From: Verrucomicrobiota bacterium | GTDB taxonomy: Bacteria; Verrucomicrobiota; Verrucomicrobiia; Opitutales; Opitutaceae | Length of the DNA: 64,000 bases | Direction: 5' to 3' | NCBI GenBank assembly: GCA_016235555.1 | Contig: JACRKC010000060.1 | Span: 62,001 to 126,000 of the forward strand | In this document: piece after piece, positions 13,638 to 63,201 of the stretch | Layout: each line of letters starts with the position of its first letter | Position numbering within the stretch: position 1 is the first letter of the stretch | Made by a program: the position numbers and the translations under genes | The notes under the pieces: model-generated | The model's database searches: none | Told to the model about the DNA's origin: nothing | Seen by the model: the letters and a program-made list of their open reading frames with translations, nothing else

Positions 13638-16634
13638 TTAGTAACGCCCGTTCACCCCGAAGCTCACGAACGGTCCGTTGTAAATCGTCCGCGTGCGCGC
13701 GCCGCTGGTGGTTTGCACGACCCGCTGGGGCTCATCGAAGAGATTCGAGACGTCGAAGAAGAATTCCAACCCGCGCGGCAGCCGCAGCGAAAAGCCGGCG
13801 TTCGCCACGCGCCGGGCGAGCCGATCCGTCTGCAACTGCGGCGTGGGGCTGTAGGCGTTCAGGCAGCGATCCGTATGGCTCCACTGCACATACGGCGCGA
13901 ACCACCGGTATTTGTAGCTGAGGCGGACGTTCGCGGTGTTCGGGACGAAGCCCTCGAGCCCGTTGGTGCCGCCGCTGCCCTGGCCGTAGTCGCCCTCGGC
14001 CTGGAGGTGCGTGTAGTTGCAGAGCACCGTGAGCCCGCGGAACGCGCTCGGGAGGAAGGTGAGTTGCTGCAGATAGGAAAACTCGACGCCCGTCACCCGG
14101 CCGCGGCCGCCATTGCCGTTTGAGAGAATCGTGTAGCCGCCGTATTGGCCTTCGTAGCCATTGCTCGGACCGGCGCCGATGATGCCGATCTCCTGTCGAA
14201 AAACGAAATCGGTCAGATCCTTCCGGAACAGCCCGAGCGAAAGCTGTCCGACCGGCTTCAGATAATATTCGAGCGACAGGTCGTAGCTCGTCGCGAACTG
14301 CGGTTTGAGCGAGGGATTGTCGAGCGTGACGGTGTGATCGACGTCCGACACAGAAAAGATCGGCGTCAAATCGCCGAGCGCCGGTCGGCCGATGCTCGTC
14401 GCCACGCTCAAGCGGCCGATCAGGTTGGGCGTGAACGCCTCGCGAAAATGCAGGCTCGGGAAGAAATCGCGCGTCTCACCCGTGCGGGCGGAGGGCGTCG
14501 TGCCGTATTCGGCGTCGGTGCGCTTCACGGCGTCGGTGATGTTGGCCAGCGTGGCGCGCTTGATGTAGGCCCGCGCCTCGGTCTTCGACTCCTCCCACCG
14601 CACGCCGGTGACCACGCCGAGCCGGCCGAACGTCGTCGAACCCATCACGTAGCCGGCGAGGATTTTCTCCTGCACGAAACGGTAGCCCGCGCGCCGCGAC
14701 GACTCCACCTGGTAGGGGTCCACGCGCCACTGCCCCGGCTCGTTGTCCATCGAATGGGAATATTTCAACGGATCGAACCGCGGCACCGCACCGAGCCCGA
14801 ACCGCGGCGCCAACGCGGGATACGAGGCGAAGCGCGAGAGATCGTCGTCGTTCAGGCGGGTGGCGGGGTTGACGCCGGCGACGCCATCGGGTCCGACGTA
14901 AGTGGAGTTGCGCGCGCCGGAATCCTGATCCGACGACTGGCGCGTCGCGAGGCCGCCGAGGCTGAGGAGAATCTTCTGGCCACGGAGCGACACGGGCCGC
15001 TTCGCGTTGAACTCCGCGCTGGCCGCGCGGTTGACCGAGATGGCCGAGGTCTGCGACACGGTGCCGTTGGCGTAATTGCGCGCGTCGTAGATGCTCGGTC
15101 CCGAAGTCTGCGTGAAGGTCGGAGATTCCTCGCTCCTGCTCTTGTCGAGAATCCAGCCGATGTTCGTGACGGTGGCGGTCCAGTTGCGGCGCACGGCGTG
15201 GTTGCGGTAGGCGCCGGTGTCGCGCTCGGCGCGCGAGCGGTTGAGCGTGTAGTCGAGCTTCCACTCGCCGAGCCGGTGCTCGCCGCCGAACTGGATCATG
15301 TCGGTGAGATCGTCGGCCTCGAAGGGATTGGTCGCCGCCTGGAAAGTCGTGCGCGTGGAGTGCAGCACTTCGGTGACCGCCGCGGTGGAACCCGGCCGGA
15401 TGTTGCCGCCGCTCGCGGGCGCGCCGTCGGCCGTGACGCCGTTGGCGAACGCCCGGCCGGCCGTCGCGACACTCGCGGTGTAGGCCACTTGATAGTTCTG
15501 CGGACGCGTCGTCGTCTGCTCCTGAAAATTGCGCATCGCCGTCAGGTAATAGCGCGAATCGGCGTTGGCGCGGAAATCGACGCGCACGCTGCCCGTCTGC
15601 AGGAGGCGATCCTGGATGCCGTCGGTGCGCACGAAGTTGCTCGTGAACGCCGGCGTGCGCCCCGTCGTGTCGGGCGTGAGGTCGGTGATCGTGCGCTGGG
15701 TGACGTTGTCGTTGTAGACGAAATTGCCGCTGAGCCCGAGGTTCGCCTGCTCCCCGAAGAGGCCGAAGACCTCGCGGTAGCCGAGCTGCACCTGGGGCTG
15801 CACCTGCGGCACGGTGCGCCGCGGCGTGTAGTCAAAAAAAGTCGGCGACCACTTGCCGCCCACGCGAAACGTGATCTCGCGCTTCGCCTTCATGTTGAGG
15901 GTCGACTTCGACTTGAACTTGATGAGCCCGCTGATCGAGTCCGCCGGCAGGTTCGGCGTGAGCGACTTCGTCACCTCGATCTCCTCGAAGTTGCTCGCGG
16001 TGATGTTGGTGTAGATCGGCGTGCGGCTCATCGCGAGCTGCGACACCAGCGTGACGCCGTCGACCGTCGTCTTGTTGAGCGTGGCCGGCAGGCCGCGGAT
16101 GACGGGGCGGTCCAGATTGCCCTCGTCGGAGGGGATCGAGTAAACGCCAGGCAGGCGGTTGAGCAGCTCCGCCGGATTGTCGTTGGCGAGCACGCCGAGC
16201 GCGTCCATCGCGATGACGTTCTGCACGCTGTCGGCGTTCTTCTGCCGCGTGAGCGAGGCGGCGTTGCCTTCGCGCTCGGAGGTGACGACGAACTGCTCCA
16301 TCTGCACCGACTCGCCGGTCTTGAGTTTCACCAGGACGTTCTGCCGCGCCTCGGCGGTGACGCGCACGGACACGGTCTGCTCGTCGAACCCGAAATAAGA
16401 AATGCGCGCCGAGTAGTCGCCGGGTGCGACGTTGTGAAATTCGGCGACACCCAGTTCGTCCGTCATGTCGTCGCGCCCGGTCGGGAGCAGTTCGACGCGC
16501 GCCTGCTTGAGCAGGTAGGCGGACTCGGCGCTGCGGACGGTGATGGTCAGGGTGGCGGAGCGGACACTGGTCGCGAACAAGCCGAGGACGGCGAACGCGA
16601 GAAGGCGGAGGGAGGCGAGGCAATTGGTTCTCAT
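13638..16634 (-). CDS. TonB-dependent receptor 3 with N-terminal carboxypeptidase-regulatory-like domain
   Basis: 998 residues from the ATG at 16634, chosen for the signal peptide it opens (CLASLRLLAFAVLGLFATSV). Residues about 30-115 form a CarboxypepD_reg-like beta-sandwich (LTITVRSAESAYLLKQARVE, GVAEFHNVAPGDYSARISYFG), an extension typical of Bacteroidota and Verrucomicrobiota receptors. The plug follows (DALGVLANDNPAELLNRLPG, RPVIRGLPATLNKTTVDG, FEEIEVTKSLTPNLPADSI), then a large barrel ending in Tyr (GVNGRY). Importers of this type often take up oligosaccharides. It is transcribed toward the small lipoprotein with element E2 between them, and element A1 lies upstream at 16769-16903. Confidence 0.9.
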   Translation of the reverse strand: MRTNCLASLRLLAFAVLGLFATSVRSATLTITVRSAESAYLLKQARVELLPTGRDDMTDELGVAEFHNVAPGDYSARISYFGFDEQTVSVRVTAEARQNVLVKLKTGESVQMEQFVVTSEREGNAASLTRQKNADSVQNVIAMDALGVLANDNPAELLNRLPGVYSIPSDEGNLDRPVIRGLPATLNKTTVDGVTLVSQLAMSRTPIYTNITASNFEEIEVTKSLTPNLPADSISGLIKFKSKSTLNMKAKREITFRVGGKWSPTFFDYTPRRTVPQVQPQVQLGYREVFGLFGEQANLGLSGNFVYNDNVTQRTITDLTPDTTGRTPAFTSNFVRTDGIQDRLLQTGSVRVDFRANADSRYYLTAMRNFQEQTTTRPQNYQVAYTASVATAGRAFANGVTADGAPASGGNIRPGSTAAVTEVLHSTRTTFQAATNPFEADDLTDMIQFGGEHRLGEWKLDYTLNRSRAERDTGAYRNHAVRRNWTATVTNIGWILDKSRSEESPTFTQTSGPSIYDARNYANGTVSQTSAISVNRAASAEFNAKRPVSLRGQKILLSLGGLATRQSSDQDSGARNSTYVGPDGVAGVNPATRLNDDDLSRFASYPALAPRFGLGAVPRFDPLKYSHSMDNEPGQWRVDPYQVESSRRAGYRFVQEKILAGYVMGSTTFGRLGVVTGVRWEESKTEARAYIKRATLANITDAVKRTDAEYGTTPSARTGETRDFFPSLHFREAFTPNLIGRLSVATSIGRPALGDLTPIFSVSDVDHTVTLDNPSLKPQFATSYDLSLEYYLKPVGQLSLGLFRKDLTDFVFRQEIGIIGAGPSNGYEGQYGGYTILSNGNGGRGRVTGVEFSYLQQLTFLPSAFRGLTVLCNYTHLQAEGDYGQGSGGTNGLEGFVPNTANVRLSYKYRWFAPYVQWSHTDRCLNAYSPTPQLQTDRLARRVANAGFSLRLPRGLEFFFDVSNLFDEPQRVVQTTSGARTRTIYNGPFVSFGVNGRY

Positions 16635-16768
16635 TGGCCGCTGGGGTTTGGGTGAAGGACCGGGGAGTCCCTGAGGAATGCGAAAACAGCTAAAACGATT
16701 TAGCGTCAAGTCAAGCATGCGGTCGCTTCCACGGCGAAACGCACCCACTCCGCTCGGGAATCGGGAGG

Positions 16769-16903
16769 TGTAACTCAAACTGAGGTCAGTTCTCGAATGC
16801 CTCGGTTGTAGCGGCGGTCTATGACCGCCGTCGTTGCGCCAAGGGCATTCGTTCGGCGGTCATAGACCGCCGCTACAAATTACTGACCTCAGTTTGAGTC
16901 ACA
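16769..16903. repeat. Palindromic element A1 with flanking direct repeats
   Basis: 135 bases. Outer inverted repeats contain ACTCAAACTGAGGTCAGT. The inner hairpins are GTAG-headed (CGGCGGTC-TAT-GACCGCCG) and face each other across the loop GCGCCAAGGGCATTCGTT. Immediately outside lie near-identical direct repeats, CTCGGGAATCGGGAGG at 16753-16768 and CTCGGAATCGGGAGG at 16904-16918, resembling a target-site duplication. The element lies upstream of receptor 3 (-) and of the DUF1643 gene (+). Confidence 0.88.
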
Positions 16904-16929
16904 CTCGGAATCGGGAGGCCATCCGCTCC

Positions 16930-17586
16930 GTGGTTGTCAGCGCGGCGACAAATCCCCACAGACGCCGTGTTCATCCAACCCCTGCCAATCCGCCCGTGGG
17001 CCGCCGCGCCAAATCCATTTCCCAGCACACCTTCGCCGAGCAACCGCTGGAGCTGTTTCCGCCCGAGCCGGAGGATCCGCTCAACGCCGAGCGCACCCGG
17101 TTCAGCGCGGATCGCCGGCATCGCTTCACGCTCTTTCGCAGCTTCCGGGCCCGCGACGCCCGCCGCGATCCCGACCACTACGTCGCGTTCATCGGCATGA
17201 ATCCTTCCTCGGCCACCGATGTCGTGGCCGATGCCACGGTGGCCCGGTGCATCGACTTCGCCTTTCGCTGGGGCTTTGGCGGTTTCTACATGCTGAACGC
17301 CTTCAGCCTGCGCGCCACGGCGTCGAGGGAGTTGAAGGAGTTCACACCCAATCTGCCGGAGAACGACGAGTGGCTCCGCCGGATCGTCGCCGGTGCCGCC
17401 CGCGTGGTCGTCGCGTGGGGCGCGCCGGGCCATCGCGACGGCCGGGGTGCGGCGGTCGAGGCGCTGCTGCGCGCCTCGTGCGCTCCCGACCTCGTGTTCT
17501 GTTTCGGTCGGAATCAGGACGGCAGTCCCACCCACCCGCTCTACCAGCGGCGCGACGCGGTGCTGCTCCCCTACTTCACCGGGTAA
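16930..17586 (+). CDS. DUF1643 domain protein
   Basis: A DUF1643 domain fills the C-terminal 180 residues: RTRFSADRRHRFTLFRSF, YVAFIGMNPSSATD, FRWGFGGFYMLNAFSLRAT, VVVAWGAPG and a late VFCFGRNQDGSPTHPLY. DUF1643 proteins are common in bacteria and phages and have no established activity; the MNPSxA motif is characteristic. There is no good ATG. I marked GTG at 16930 because GGGAGG lies 11 bases upstream; GTG at 16996 gives 196 residues and is equally possible. The first in-frame start, TTG at 16834, is inside element A1 and unlikely. The presumed ribosome binding site GGGAGG is itself the direct repeat flanking A1, so the element inserted just upstream of this gene. Confidence 0.75.
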   Translation: MVVSAATNPHRRRVHPTPANPPVGRRAKSISQHTFAEQPLELFPPEPEDPLNAERTRFSADRRHRFTLFRSFRARDARRDPDHYVAFIGMNPSSATDVVADATVARCIDFAFRWGFGGFYMLNAFSLRATASRELKEFTPNLPENDEWLRRIVAGAARVVVAWGAPGHRDGRGAAVEALLRASCAPDLVFCFGRNQDGSPTHPLYQRRDAVLLPYFTG

Positions 17587-17652: not shown

Positions 17653-20103
17653 ATGAAACCAACTCCCTTTGCCGCCGTCCGCCTCGCGGGACGGCTGATC
17701 GCGTGGCTCGTCTCCATCGCCACGATGCGCGCCGAAGTCTCCTCCGGCATCATCGACTCCGGACACTACCGCGATCCGGCCACCGCCCAGGCCGCATGGG
17801 TGCCGATGCGCGGGACCGCGCCCGTCGCGCCCGCCACGGTGCAAGGCCACGACGCGCTCCGGCTGCCGTGCAACTTCGCCGGCACGACCATCGAGCGCGC
17901 CTCGTGGGATCGCGCGGTCACCCTCGATCTGTCGGCCAGCCGCGGCGTGCAGTTCGAGTTCCTCTGCCCCGACATCGCTCCGATCTCCCACTTCAGTTTC
18001 TTCTTCCAGAGCGGCGGCGGCTGGTATTCGGCGACGTTTTTCCCCGAGGCCGTCAACCGGTGGTGCACCGTCACGATCGACAAATCCGCCACGCGCATCG
18101 AGGGACAACCCGCCGGCTGGCACCGCATCACGGCCATCCGCGTCTCGGCGTGGCGCGGCGGCGACGCTTCGACCGAGCTTTTCCTGCGCGACCTGCGCGT
18201 GTGCGGCGGACTCGGGATCGATGCCAGCGTCGCCGTGATCCAGGGCGAATCCGTCGCGCGCCAGAGCGCTGGCGAGGCACGCAGCGTCATGCAATTCACC
18301 GAGTCGATCACGACGGGCTTCGACTCGTTCGGCGTTGGCTACGCCACGCTCAGCGATCTCGCGCTCGACGCCGCCACGCTGCGCCAGGCGAAGCTCGTCG
18401 TGCTCCCCTACAATCCGTCGCTGCCCGACACAGCGATCGCCGCCCTCCGCGGCTATCTCGAGTCCGGCGGAAAGCTGCTCGCGTTCTACACGCTGCCCCG
18501 CGAGCTGCAGGCCCCGGTGCATCTCTCCCTCGGCCGCCTGCTCAAAGCGGACGACCGGCCCGCTCGTTTCGCGGCGATGCGCTTCGCCGCCGATGCGCTG
18601 CCGGGCGCGCCCGCGCTCGTCAAACAACGCTCGTGGAACGTCCGCGAAGCCACGCCCGACGCCGGTGCCGGTCGCGTCGTCGCCGAGTGGTCCGACGATC
18701 AGGGCCAGCCCTCCGGCGCGGCCGCCGTCGTCGCGACGGCCAACTGTGTGTTCGTCACCCACGTGCTGCTCGCCGACGATCTCCCGAATCAGCGCCGCCT
18801 GTTGCTCGCCGCCGCGGCCCGGCTGGCGCCGGACCTGTTGCCCGAAGCCGTGACGGCCGGCCTCAATCACCTCGGCCGGATCGGCGATCATCGCGACTTC
18901 ACCGCGGCCGCGGACTGGATCGCCCAACAGCCGCGCCTCGCCGCGCACAGCGCCCTCGCCGACGCGAAGGCCCTGCGCACCCGCGCCCAGCAGTTCACGG
19001 CCAACCGCCGCTATCTCGAAGCGCTCGACGTGCTGCCGCGCGCCGCGCAACGCCTGCTCGACGCCTACTGCCTCGCGCAGCGCGCGGTGCCGGGCGAGTT
19101 TCGTGCCTTCTGGTGTCACGACGCGTTCGGCGTCAACGGCCTCGATTGGGACACCGCGATCAAGCGCCTCGCCGACGCCGGTTTCACCGCCGTGCTGCCC
19201 AACATGCTGTGGGGCGGCGTCGCGTTTTATCCGAGCAAGGTGCTGCCCGTCGCACCCGACGTCGCCAAACGCGGCGACCAGATCGCGCAGTGCCTCGCCG
19301 CGGCGAAAAAATACGGCGTGCAGGTGCACGTCTGGAAAGTGAACTGGAACACCGGCCACCGCGTGCCCGCCGCGTTCCTGGAGCAGATGCGCCGCGAGGG
19401 CCGGCTCCAGGCCAGCTCCAAAGGCAAGGAGGAGCCGTGGCTCTGCCCCTCGCATCCGGCCAATCAGCAACTCGAGATCGCCGCGATGGTCGAGGTCGCC
19501 CGCGACTACGATGTGGCGGGCATCCACTTCGACTACATCCGCTACCCCGACAACGATCACTGCTTCTGCGCCGGCTGCCGCGAACGCTTCGCCCGCGCCA
19601 CCGGCGCCGCCGTCGCGAACTGGCCGGCCGACGTCCTCAACGCCGGGCCGCGCCGCGCGGCGTGGCTCGACTGGCGCCGCGCCAATATCGACACCGTCGT
19701 GCGCGCCGTGAGCGAGCAGGCGCGCGCCGTCCGTCCGACGATCAAGATCTCCGCCGCCGTCTTCCGCAACTGGGCGACCGATCGTGACGGGGTGGGCCAG
19801 GATTGGAAACTGTGGTGCGACCGCGGCTGGGTCGATTTCGTGTGTCCGATGGACTACACGGACAACGACCGCCAGTTCGAAGCGTGGGTGAAGCAGCAGA
19901 AAATCTGGGCTGGCTCCGTGCCCGTTTATCCCGGCATCGGCGTGAGTTCGTCCCACTCGCGTCTGCCTGCCGACCGCGTGATCGGCCAGATCGAGATCGC
20001 GCGCCGCCACGGTCTGCCCGGCTTCACGCTCTTCAACTACGGCGCGGTCGAAAGCGCCGAACTCCTGCCGCTGCTCGGCCTCGGCACCACCGCGAAACGC
20101 TAG
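17653..20103 (+). CDS. Secreted multidomain GHL10-like glycosyl hydrolase
   Basis: 816 residues with an N-terminal export signal (LIAWLVSIATMRAEV). About residues 20-190 form a beta-sandwich, possibly a carbohydrate-binding region. A Rossmann-like segment follows (KLVVLPYNPSLPDTAIAAL, YLESGGKLLAFYTLP), as in the non-catalytic domain of some glycoside hydrolases. From about residue 480 a GHL10 (DUF187) barrel begins: GFTAVLPNMLWGG, VQVHVWKVNWN, then AGIHFDYIRYPDNDHCFC with a nearby Cys cluster (CAGCRERF), and VDFVCPMDYT. The conserved HFDYIRYP strand carries the likely catalytic acidic residues. It precedes a GH-A-clan enzyme and a sulfatase on the same strand and probably acts on the same polysaccharide, by inference from context. 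Confidence 0.8.
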   Translation: MKPTPFAAVRLAGRLIAWLVSIATMRAEVSSGIIDSGHYRDPATAQAAWVPMRGTAPVAPATVQGHDALRLPCNFAGTTIERASWDRAVTLDLSASRGVQFEFLCPDIAPISHFSFFFQSGGGWYSATFFPEAVNRWCTVTIDKSATRIEGQPAGWHRITAIRVSAWRGGDASTELFLRDLRVCGGLGIDASVAVIQGESVARQSAGEARSVMQFTESITTGFDSFGVGYATLSDLALDAATLRQAKLVVLPYNPSLPDTAIAALRGYLESGGKLLAFYTLPRELQAPVHLSLGRLLKADDRPARFAAMRFAADALPGAPALVKQRSWNVREATPDAGAGRVVAEWSDDQGQPSGAAAVVATANCVFVTHVLLADDLPNQRRLLLAAAARLAPDLLPEAVTAGLNHLGRIGDHRDFTAAADWIAQQPRLAAHSALADAKALRTRAQQFTANRRYLEALDVLPRAAQRLLDAYCLAQRAVPGEFRAFWCHDAFGVNGLDWDTAIKRLADAGFTAVLPNMLWGGVAFYPSKVLPVAPDVAKRGDQIAQCLAAAKKYGVQVHVWKVNWNTGHRVPAAFLEQMRREGRLQASSKGKEEPWLCPSHPANQQLEIAAMVEVARDYDVAGIHFDYIRYPDNDHCFCAGCRERFARATGAAVANWPADVLNAGPRRAAWLDWRRANIDTVVRAVSEQARAVRPTIKISAAVFRNWATDRDGVGQDWKLWCDRGWVDFVCPMDYTDNDRQFEAWVKQQKIWAGSVPVYPGIGVSSSHSRLPADRVIGQIEIARRHGLPGFTLFNYGAVESAELLPLLGLGTTAKR

Positions 20104-24280: not shown

Positions 24281-24390
24281 ATACCAACGTCACCTTGCGT
24301 TTGGACTGTCGGCCCGGCCGGTGGCCGGGCAGCCCGCCCAGCGGGCGGGCCTACAACGGAAGGTCTGAAAGCTACGGGATGTCGGTGTTA
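24281..24390. repeat. MITE-like palindromic element E3
   Basis: Starts ATACCAACGTCACC, contains GCCCGGCC-GGT-GGCCGGGC then CCCGCCC-AGC-GGGCGGG, and ends with a diverged arm (AAGGTCTGAAAGCTACGGG then GTCGGTGT) like that of E2. It lies 27 bases after the sulfatase stop codon. Confidence 0.78.
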
Positions 24391-42992: not shown

Positions 42993-43069
42993 GCGGGAGG
43001 GATGCAACCACCACGGGCGCCGCGGTGCAAACCGAGTTTGTCCGCCGGCCGGCGCCGGGAGCAGCTCAA

Positions 43070-43160
43070 TTTCTTGCCGTCCGGCGAGAGCGACGGAGCG
43101 GCGGTTTTCAACCGCCGGGCTGGGGCGCTTGGAAAAGCGCCCCTCCGCCTGGCAAGAAAG
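43070..43160. repeat. Composite palindromic element L1
   Basis: Outer arms TTTCTTGCC (43070-43078) and GGCAAGAAAG (43151-43160). Inside are two different GGAG-headed hairpins facing inward: CGGCGGTT-TTC-AACCGCCG on the plus strand and GGGGCGCTT-TTCC-AAGCGCCCC on the minus strand. A related copy (L2) is at 51866-51954. Confidence 0.82.
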
Positions 43161-43188
43161 CGAGATGCGCGCCCGCCACCGCGCCGGT

Positions 43189-46170: not shown

Positions 46171-46293
46171 AGTTCGGTCGGTTGAGGGGTGGGCCGCTTC
46201 CGCAGAGGAAACAGCCGGGGTAGTTGTGGAGCGGGAACCAAGCCAACCAGCCCGGGAAGGGCAATGGCGAACTGGTGCGCAAGACCAGAGGGG

Positions 46294-46432
46294 GTGTAAC
46301 AGGAAGTGAGGTCAGTAAACAGAGGTCTTGGTTGTAGCGGCGGTCCGCGACCGCCGAACGAGAACCCATGGCGCATACCCGGCGGTCGCAGACCGCCGCT
46401 ACAGCGGGCTGACCTCACTTCCGGTTGCATCC
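46294..46432. repeat. Palindromic element A2 with flanking direct repeats
   Basis: Outer arms contain GGAAGTGAGGTCAG and CTGACCTCACTTCC. The inner GTAG-headed hairpins are CGGCGGTC-CGC-GACCGCCG and CGGCGGTC-GCA-GACCGCCG. It is flanked by GACCAGAGGGG (46283-46293) and GACCAGAGGAG (46433-46443), 10 of 11 identical. It lies between the two paralogous receptor genes. Confidence 0.85.
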
Positions 46433-54928: not shown

Positions 54929-55005
54929 CGATAGGCGGCGACCGGCCATGGAAACAAAAGCAGGCGTCGGATGCGACTGGATAGATGCACTGCTGCGCTG
55001 GAGGG

Positions 55006-55137
55006 GTGTAACAGGAAATGCGGTCAGCCAGCTGTAGCGATGGTCTGTGACCGCCGTCGAACCTCCAGCATTCCTCCGTCGGCGGTCGTAGACCGCCGCT
55101 ACAGCCAAGGCCTTCGGAACTGGCCTCAGTTTGATTT
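55006..55137. repeat. Palindromic element A3, hybrid outer arms
   Basis: The left end (GTGTAACAGGAAATGCGGTC) matches A2, while the right end (CTGGCCTCAGTTTGATTTAT) matches A1/A5. The inner hairpins are GTAGCGATGGTCTGTGACCG and its inverted partner GGCGGTCGTAGACCGCCGCT. It is the first of an abutting A3-B1-J cluster that fills most of the 578-base gap after the beta-helix start. Confidence 0.8.
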
Positions 55138-55271
55138 ATACCAACGGCTGCTGAAGAATGGACTATTGGGTCGCGTGGGGAGGTTGGGATTTATCCCCGA
55201 CGCCTGCGGTCGGACGATGTCGGGCGTAAAGCCCGACCTACGATGATCCAAATCTCAACAGCCGTTGGTAT
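55138..55271. repeat. Palindromic element B1
   Basis: Outer arms ATACCAACGGCTG (55138-55150) and CAGCCGTTGGTAT (55259-55271) are perfect. Inside are GGTTGGGATTTATCCCCGAC and, inverted, the GTAG-headed hairpin GTCGGGC-TTTAC-GCCCGAC. The outer ATACCA end resembles that of family E. Confidence 0.85.
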
Positions 55272-62972: not shown

Positions 62973-63036
62973 CGGGCGAAGTGAGCGGGCCGCACGGCGC
63001 GAAGCAAGCGCGCGGTGCGGCAGCACCCCGCCCGGG

Positions 63037-63171
63037 GTGTGACTCAAACTGGTGTCAGTGACTTGTAGCGGCGGTCTATGACCGCCGGCGTGGCGCCAAG
63101 GGTATTCGTTCGGCGGTCATAGACCGCCGCTACAACCGAGGCATTCGAGAACTGACCTCAGTTTGAGTGCC
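63037..63171. repeat. Palindromic element A5 with flanking direct repeats
   Basis: Same family as A1, with near-identical GTAG hairpins and core loop. It is flanked by CCCCGCCCG (63026-63034) and CCCCGCCTG (63172-63180), 8 of 9 identical. Relative to the core, its long linker lies on the opposite side from that of A1. Confidence 0.82.
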
Positions 63172-63201
63172 CCCCGCCTGAGCCCGTGGATCACGCCACC
63201 A

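Follow-up and report, generated by a model that had tools for sequence, protein, structure and literature searches.

In the 64,000-nucleotide stretch of Verrucomicrobiota DNA analysed here (the window), a nested palindrome lies at the junction of a TonB receptor and a DUF1643 protein (PF07799, 3.4e-31), ahead of the gene for the latter; downstream of this gene follows a protein with a GHL10 glycosyl-hydrolase-like domain (17653-20103). Between positions 16500 and 17200 no consensus promoter or terminator was found. The palindrome's outer arms (16768-16790 and 16882-16904) show 96% complementarity; each inner arm (16806-16830 and 16854-16878) has the tag GTAG at its outer end. Single-stranded DNA of the 141-base element folds into one long hairpin of -61.8 kcal/mol (z -15.6); the RNA fold reaches -96.2 (z -14.4). 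An in-frame protein insertion is ruled out by stops in all six frames of the element. A known RNA was rejected as well, as the two Rfam matches both lie far under the gathering score.

A sequence-only reading of this locus had noticed a direct repeat of 15-16 bases around the palindrome. The repeat is real: CTCGGGAATCGGGAGG at 16753-16768 and CTCGGAATCGGGAGG at 16904-16918 both abut the outer inverted repeat (16768-16904), and GGAATCGGGAGG occurs without mismatch at only two places in the window, which are the two repeat copies. The duplication itself, however, is only 9 bp long (GGAATCGGG), and with the boundaries so corrected the element measures 141 bp (Table 1). The copies are spaced by 150, that is the 141-bp element plus 9 bp, the same value as in the family described below. 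The AGG right after the left duplication represents element bases 1-3 (GGG in most family copies) and the CTC ahead of the right duplication the final three (CCC in most copies). The match extends to 15-16 bases because both terminal triplets of the element look like the sequence adjoining them. The single base thought to be deleted from the right copy is therefore not a deletion. Among 44 copies the first base is G in 38 and the last base C in 39. The window copy shares its initial A with 4 of the 44 copies counted at that place, and the T in its CTC is found there in 6 of 44.

The right repeat copy had further been proposed to supply the ribosome binding site of the DUF1643 gene. This is possible, as GGGAGG at 16913-16918 precedes an in-frame GTG (16930) by 11 nt; the in-frame GTG at 16996, however, better fits the internal Met of the nearest homolog (by eye, the homolog's own start being uncertain), and we regard such a role of the right copy as doubtful. 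GGGAGG straddles the duplication and its flank and so would pre-date the insertion.

Table 1. Positions of the element, its parts and related repeats within the window
Feature	Position	Strand	Remark
141-bp mini-transposon (MITE), TIR subtype A	16766..16906	.	fixed GGG/CCC boundaries across family
Left 9-bp target-site duplication, GGAATCGGG	16757..16765	+	9/9 identical to right duplication
Right 9-bp target-site duplication, GGAATCGGG	16907..16915	+	
Left 25-bp terminal inverted repeat, AGGTGTAACTCAAACTGAGGTCAGT	16766..16790	+	family GGGTG...
Right 25-bp terminal inverted repeat	16882..16906	-	
Inner core, two inverted GTAG-tagged REP-like palindromes (REPIN-like)	16806..16878	.	25-nt arms, 100% complementary
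Copy of another repeat family	24281..24386	.	empty site for the L076:11129-11253 insertion
Second window copy, TIR subtype D	46292..46432	.	9/9 duplication gaccagagg
Hybrid copy, left TIR D and right TIR A	55004..55143	.	without duplication (3/9)
Diverged subtype A copy	63035..63175	.	no recognisable 9-bp duplication

Copies, target duplications and empty sites

The element belongs to a family with many members in its own genome. From 330 first-look candidates the best 40, the window copy included, were scored with a 136-bp inner query; these best matches to the window copy are 92-100% identical. The divergence from the consensus has a median of 5.2% in 39 copies picked for their likeness to the window copy, which itself diverges by 1.5%. 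A 19-nt pattern of the terminal inverted repeat (TIR), allowing up to two mismatches, hits 226 sites in the genome and none with the reversed-pattern control. In 59 stretches, mostly contig starts, we counted 23 pairs of the TIR subtypes A and D in 1.06 Mb, corresponding to about 170 per genome. Three of these stretches were picked for transposase matches and the rest without TIR-based choice, whereas 20 long stretches were selected around TIRs; the counts of A/D pairs and of the type B pairs described below may include overlaps between stretches.

So far the family is found only in its own genome: 37 further genomes, drawn from the same family and order, contain no match to the element. Among 273 genomes of the order the TIR pattern occurs in two, the own genome and G057, the latter with a single site with two mismatches of a kind that the reversed-pattern control yields in other genomes too. 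Plasmids gave no match and viral contigs 0 matches, and in the genome contig collection one Amycolatopsis contig matches the TIR exactly.

The flanks of the copies reveal a duplication of fixed width. In 28 of 41 copies a direct repeat scoring at least 8 lies beside the element, with 0.24 expected when the flanks of different copies are paired, and 13 of the 41 reach a score of at least 11 (0.0 expected from randomly paired flanks of different copies). Among 70 distinct copies a run of at least 7 was seen at offset 15, which equals GGG plus 9 plus CCC, in 42 (0.1 expected) and at other offsets in 0-2. An exact rescan of 2.3 Mb of the own genome, with up to six mismatches per TIR and some copies of subtype D, gave 62 distinct copies, and in 34 of these at least eight of the nine bases are identical (0.03 expected), 23 duplications being perfect. 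The same rescan yielded 164 TIR-like sites against 21 in the reversed control, and 34 further sites had no partner. Widths 8 and 10 gave two matches each, and the anchored widths 3, 4 and 5 gave 16, 7 and 7. A duplication longer than 9 bp is ruled out by the single offset and the width counts.

Copies of several lengths and cores (TIR-to-TIR 106-400 bp) have the duplication at their flanks; it is present in 5/7 short copies, 21/43 of standard length, 1/1 and 6/9 longer ones and 1/2 above 200 bp. The 28 of 62 copies without a duplication at the 8-of-9 level are as would be expected of old or recombined copies. No clear target motif emerged from 44 copies. We also observed a long TIR pair of 3,223 bp (L132) with a complete D element as its left end, and two places (L063:17511-17690 and L075:14060-14194) at which elements are apparently inserted side by side, the second at the end of the first, a possible clustering.

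A search with the joined flanks (77 records, 70 distinct) uncovered two paralogous sites that are clearly empty and contain the target once. One corresponds to the copy at L062:11685-11819, which we compared with L122 (TTCTCGGTG / TTCGCGGTG; 86% identity over 189 bases). The other belongs to a 131-bp variant at L076:11129-11253, which is inserted in a member of another repeat family; the comparison displayed six uninserted members. That other family consists of GTAGGCCCGCCCG...-type hairpins, with members in the window (Table 1) and at L072, L071, L080, L121 and L036. Three candidate sites, for L022, L046 and L047, have alignments of no more than 71-76% and poorly matching targets; they were not counted, and the match of L063 was its own locus. 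For the window copy the joined-flank search of the own genome found no empty site, and the genomes compared included none of the same genus. The DUF1643 protein is present in 8 of 56 other genomes (9 of 57 with the own genome), and its best outside match, the one inspected, lies in a different neighbourhood.

End subtypes and the GTAG-tagged core

The core has the characters of a GTAG REP or REPIN, as the tagged palindrome is found in inverted pairs and also alone. With a strict pattern we counted 44 inverted GTAG pairs: A/D elements enclose 34 of them, another 6 are close to an unpaired TIR, and the other 4 lie away from both. Single units number 35, with 10 located outside. For the element as a whole, an association with a RAYT was not seen at ten Y1_Tnp loci. 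GTAG is the mark of the GTAG REPs, which are highly enriched in Opitutus terrae according to the excerpts of PMC3733652 used here.

Similar-sized elements are also enclosed by TIRs of subtype D (GGGTGYAACAGGAAGTG...), with 13 D-D pairs of which 7 have the duplication. Mixed A/D elements number six, and one has a duplication; being few and mostly without duplication, they are as would be expected of recombinants. Ends of type B (GGGCGCATCTC...) show a 9-bp duplication in 21 of 50 pairs, with widths 4-8 and 10-13 giving 0 to 6 each. Type B is a separate MITE family of the own genome (e.g., at L073, L028 and L036), in several instances located beside type A; its member in the window (43057-43172) has no visible duplication. 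Three elements of 193-195 bp (L061:16352-16546, L064:1614-1806 and L069:9907-10100) have the same outer ends around another GTAG-type core (...GGGCGTCC...). As read from these three, cores may be exchangeable between elements with the same outer ends.

ISKra4-family transposases and the mode of spread

A model of the ISKra4 family has three matches in the own genome, two of them above the cut-off. The third is partial (L216, contig C139) and lies between two subtype A TIRs 859 bp apart (L216:984-1842), which differ from the pattern at 2/25 and 4/25 positions. For its C-terminal open frame, NF033572 gives E 2e-21 and 76.6 bits, under the curated cut-off of 205, and Pfam has no match; an N-terminal fragment is 34% identical over 44 aa to orfA of the relative L224 (pairwise E 2e-7). 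The alignment shows that the protein has lost its middle, where the relatives have their conserved D blocks (which presumably hold the catalytic residues), and has retained a GSGLIES...HRHV block. Since the middle is missing, L216 appears to be a broken ISKra4 relative and not a working source. Its identity is 48-50% to L218 and L224 and 38% to L214 and L215, its flanks (CGAGACCAC / CGCGCACCA) show no exact duplication, and by eye it has only the TIRs in common with the window element. An intact insertion sequence with the exact ends GGGTGTAACTCAAACTGAGGTCAGT was found neither in the 2.3 Mb nor in transposase searches that covered the entire own genome. Two weaker, stop-containing matches to the ISKra4-type remnant are located at C19:135336-135524 and C19:129767-129985.

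Related elements with open frames have comparable ends. In the own genome the 1494-bp L214 is bounded by GGGCGCACATCAG ends with GGG and has AGCGTGGGA on both sides (9/9 duplication), and the 1502-bp L215 has an 8/9 duplication. For both, the end search was filtered on the duplication; a search on the inverted repeat alone gave the same ends for L215 and ranked another inverted repeat first for L214. In other genomes we scanned 20 of 29 loci resembling the remnant and ranked the candidates on their ends before the duplication. A candidate end pair was obtained at 19 of the 20 loci (L225 gave none), and at four of the 20 matching GG-ends coincide with a 9/9 duplication. These are L224 (GGGTGCGACCAGAAGTGG, 18/18), L218 (GGGTGTGATTAGAAGTGG, 16/18) and L235 and L239 (GGGCGCA... 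ends), all with perfect 9-bp duplications. The remaining 16 of 20 have no 9/9 duplication, among them L228 and L230 despite their matching GGGTG ends; L240 looks by eye like an 8-bp duplication.

The sequence-only reading had taken the flanking repeat as a target-site duplication and the element as a transposon-like insertion rather than a plain REP/BIME. This view holds, given the fixed 9-bp width in 34 of the 62 copies, the two paralogous empty sites and fixed ends that match those around the decayed ISKra4-family transposase gene. We suggest that the element is very probably a non-autonomous MITE of the ISKra4 type, and that its insertion proceeded in the following steps. The 25-bp ends GGGTG...CACCC would be bound by an ISKra4-family DDE transposase, a member of the prokaryotic Mutator-like group p-MULT 4. 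This enzyme would join them to a target whose strands were cut 9 bp apart, and finally host repair would duplicate the nine target bases. A transposase of the L216 type or a close relative may have moved the element in trans, and this transposase is presumably now lost or broken in the own genome. The inner pair of GTAG-tagged hairpins is probably a REPIN-like passenger and not the moving part. A REPIN-like core inside an ISKra4-type MITE is hence our best reading.

The core by itself would also suit a REP/REPIN or TIR repeat that is spread by a Y1 transposase (RAYT/TIRYT) and flanked by a coincidental repeat. Its two GTAG-tagged palindromes form an inverted pair, the own genome has ten Y1_Tnp (RAYT-like) matches (contigs C18, C66, C56, C11, C59, C138, C79, C139, C109 and C69), and in Pseudomonas TIR families which combine GTAG units with other stem-loops are tied to such transposases (PMC3733652, excerpts). 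Strongly against this speaks the fixed duplication at the outer ends of more than half of the copies. From Y1 transposition a fixed target duplication is not expected. Moreover, only one of the ten Y1_Tnp loci (L094) contains the ends; they form a pair with the spacing of an element, and over 1.2 kb separate this pair from the gene match. Mobilisation by a RAYT was therefore rejected and is in our view very improbable.

Duplications of 9 bp occur in other transposase families too, so that the MITE could owe its movement to another DDE transposase with this stagger (IS4, IS5/IS903 or IS256 type), the link to ISKra4 being accidental. It fits this proposal that an intact ISKra4 element with the exact ends is lacking and that the remnant is partial. 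DDE_Tnp_1 (PF01609), however, has four matches in the own genome, none with these ends in its locus, which removes the IS4/IS5-type transposases as source; IS256 (PF00872) and IS1595 (PF12762) have 0 matches each. The sole gene match between these ends among the transposase loci scanned (PF01609, Y1_Tnp, ISKra4) is ISKra4, and we consider another DDE transposase unlikely. Finally, the foldback structure, the copies without duplication and the recombinant look of the hybrid A/D copies might be taken to mean that no transposition occurred and that foldbacks arose repeatedly in situ or through repair that joined them at staggered breaks. Repair is expected to give variable lengths, whereas the width is sharply 9, the ends are fixed and the empty sites are clear; this explanation is hardly credible.

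The case is a clear one in which a nested palindrome with the look of a REP/BIME element proves to be a transposon, for which the end, the length of the target and the probable transposase family can be named. It further suggests that a DDE transposase is able to spread REP-like hairpins, and that a single genome harbours no fewer than three MITE end types (A, D and B), all with a peak of 9-bp duplications. More tentatively, and with some reserve on our part, a Mutator-like DDE transposase might have taken over the spread of REPs: REPINs would be dispersed as passengers in ISKra4-type MITEs and not by their own tyrosine transposase, with interchangeable GTAG cores in a few TIR subtypes.

Comparison with known elements

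MITEs and ISKra4 elements are already known. In the open-licence literature we found no description of this family or of ISKra4-type ends combined with GTAG-tagged cores, and nothing on ISKra4 in Verrucomicrobi, on REPINs together with MITEs and a transposase, or on palindromic hairpin repeats together with a transposase in Opitut.

With the GTAG REPs and REPINs described in the excerpts of PMC3733652 the element shares its inner arms, which are inverted GTAG-tagged palindromes. It differs in that the mobile unit is bounded by an outer TIR and duplicates its target, and no link to a Y1 transposase gene was seen. The Pseudomonas TIRs are likewise made of a GTAG unit and another inverted repeat; according to the same excerpts the GTAG units are degenerate and the stem-loops attached to them unrelated, and these TIRs are present in hundreds of copies and linked to tyrosine transposases. 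Composite GTAG structures as such are therefore not new. The 9-bp duplication, however, is unmentioned for them in these parts of PMC3733652, and the transposases there are tyrosine transposases.

The transposase superfamily that includes ISKra4 is characterized in the excerpts of PMC3942029 by inverted repeats of 18-39 bp with a conserved terminal C/G and direct repeats of 8 or 9 bp; p-MULT 4 comprises the ISKra4, ISAzba1 and ISMich2 groups, the last with two-ORF transposases. The element agrees with the ISKra4 family in the GGG/CCC termini of most of its copies, its TIR of 25 bp and its 9-bp duplication. Unlike the family it is only 141 bp long and geneless, with a hairpin pair in place of the core.

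MITEs are defined in the excerpts of PMC3733652 as elements of 70-300 bp with TIRs and no coding capacity, RUP and Nezha being named. The element is short, bounded by TIRs, non-coding and present in many copies with duplications, and empty sites exist in two paralogous cases, none of them for the window copy. It thus resembles bacterial MITEs such as RUP and Nezha (PMC3733652) and MITEAba12 (PMC6382973) in size, ends, lack of coding capacity and copy number. It is set apart by its ISKra4-type ends, its core of a GTAG-tagged palindrome pair and the two end subtypes, A and D, around similar cores.
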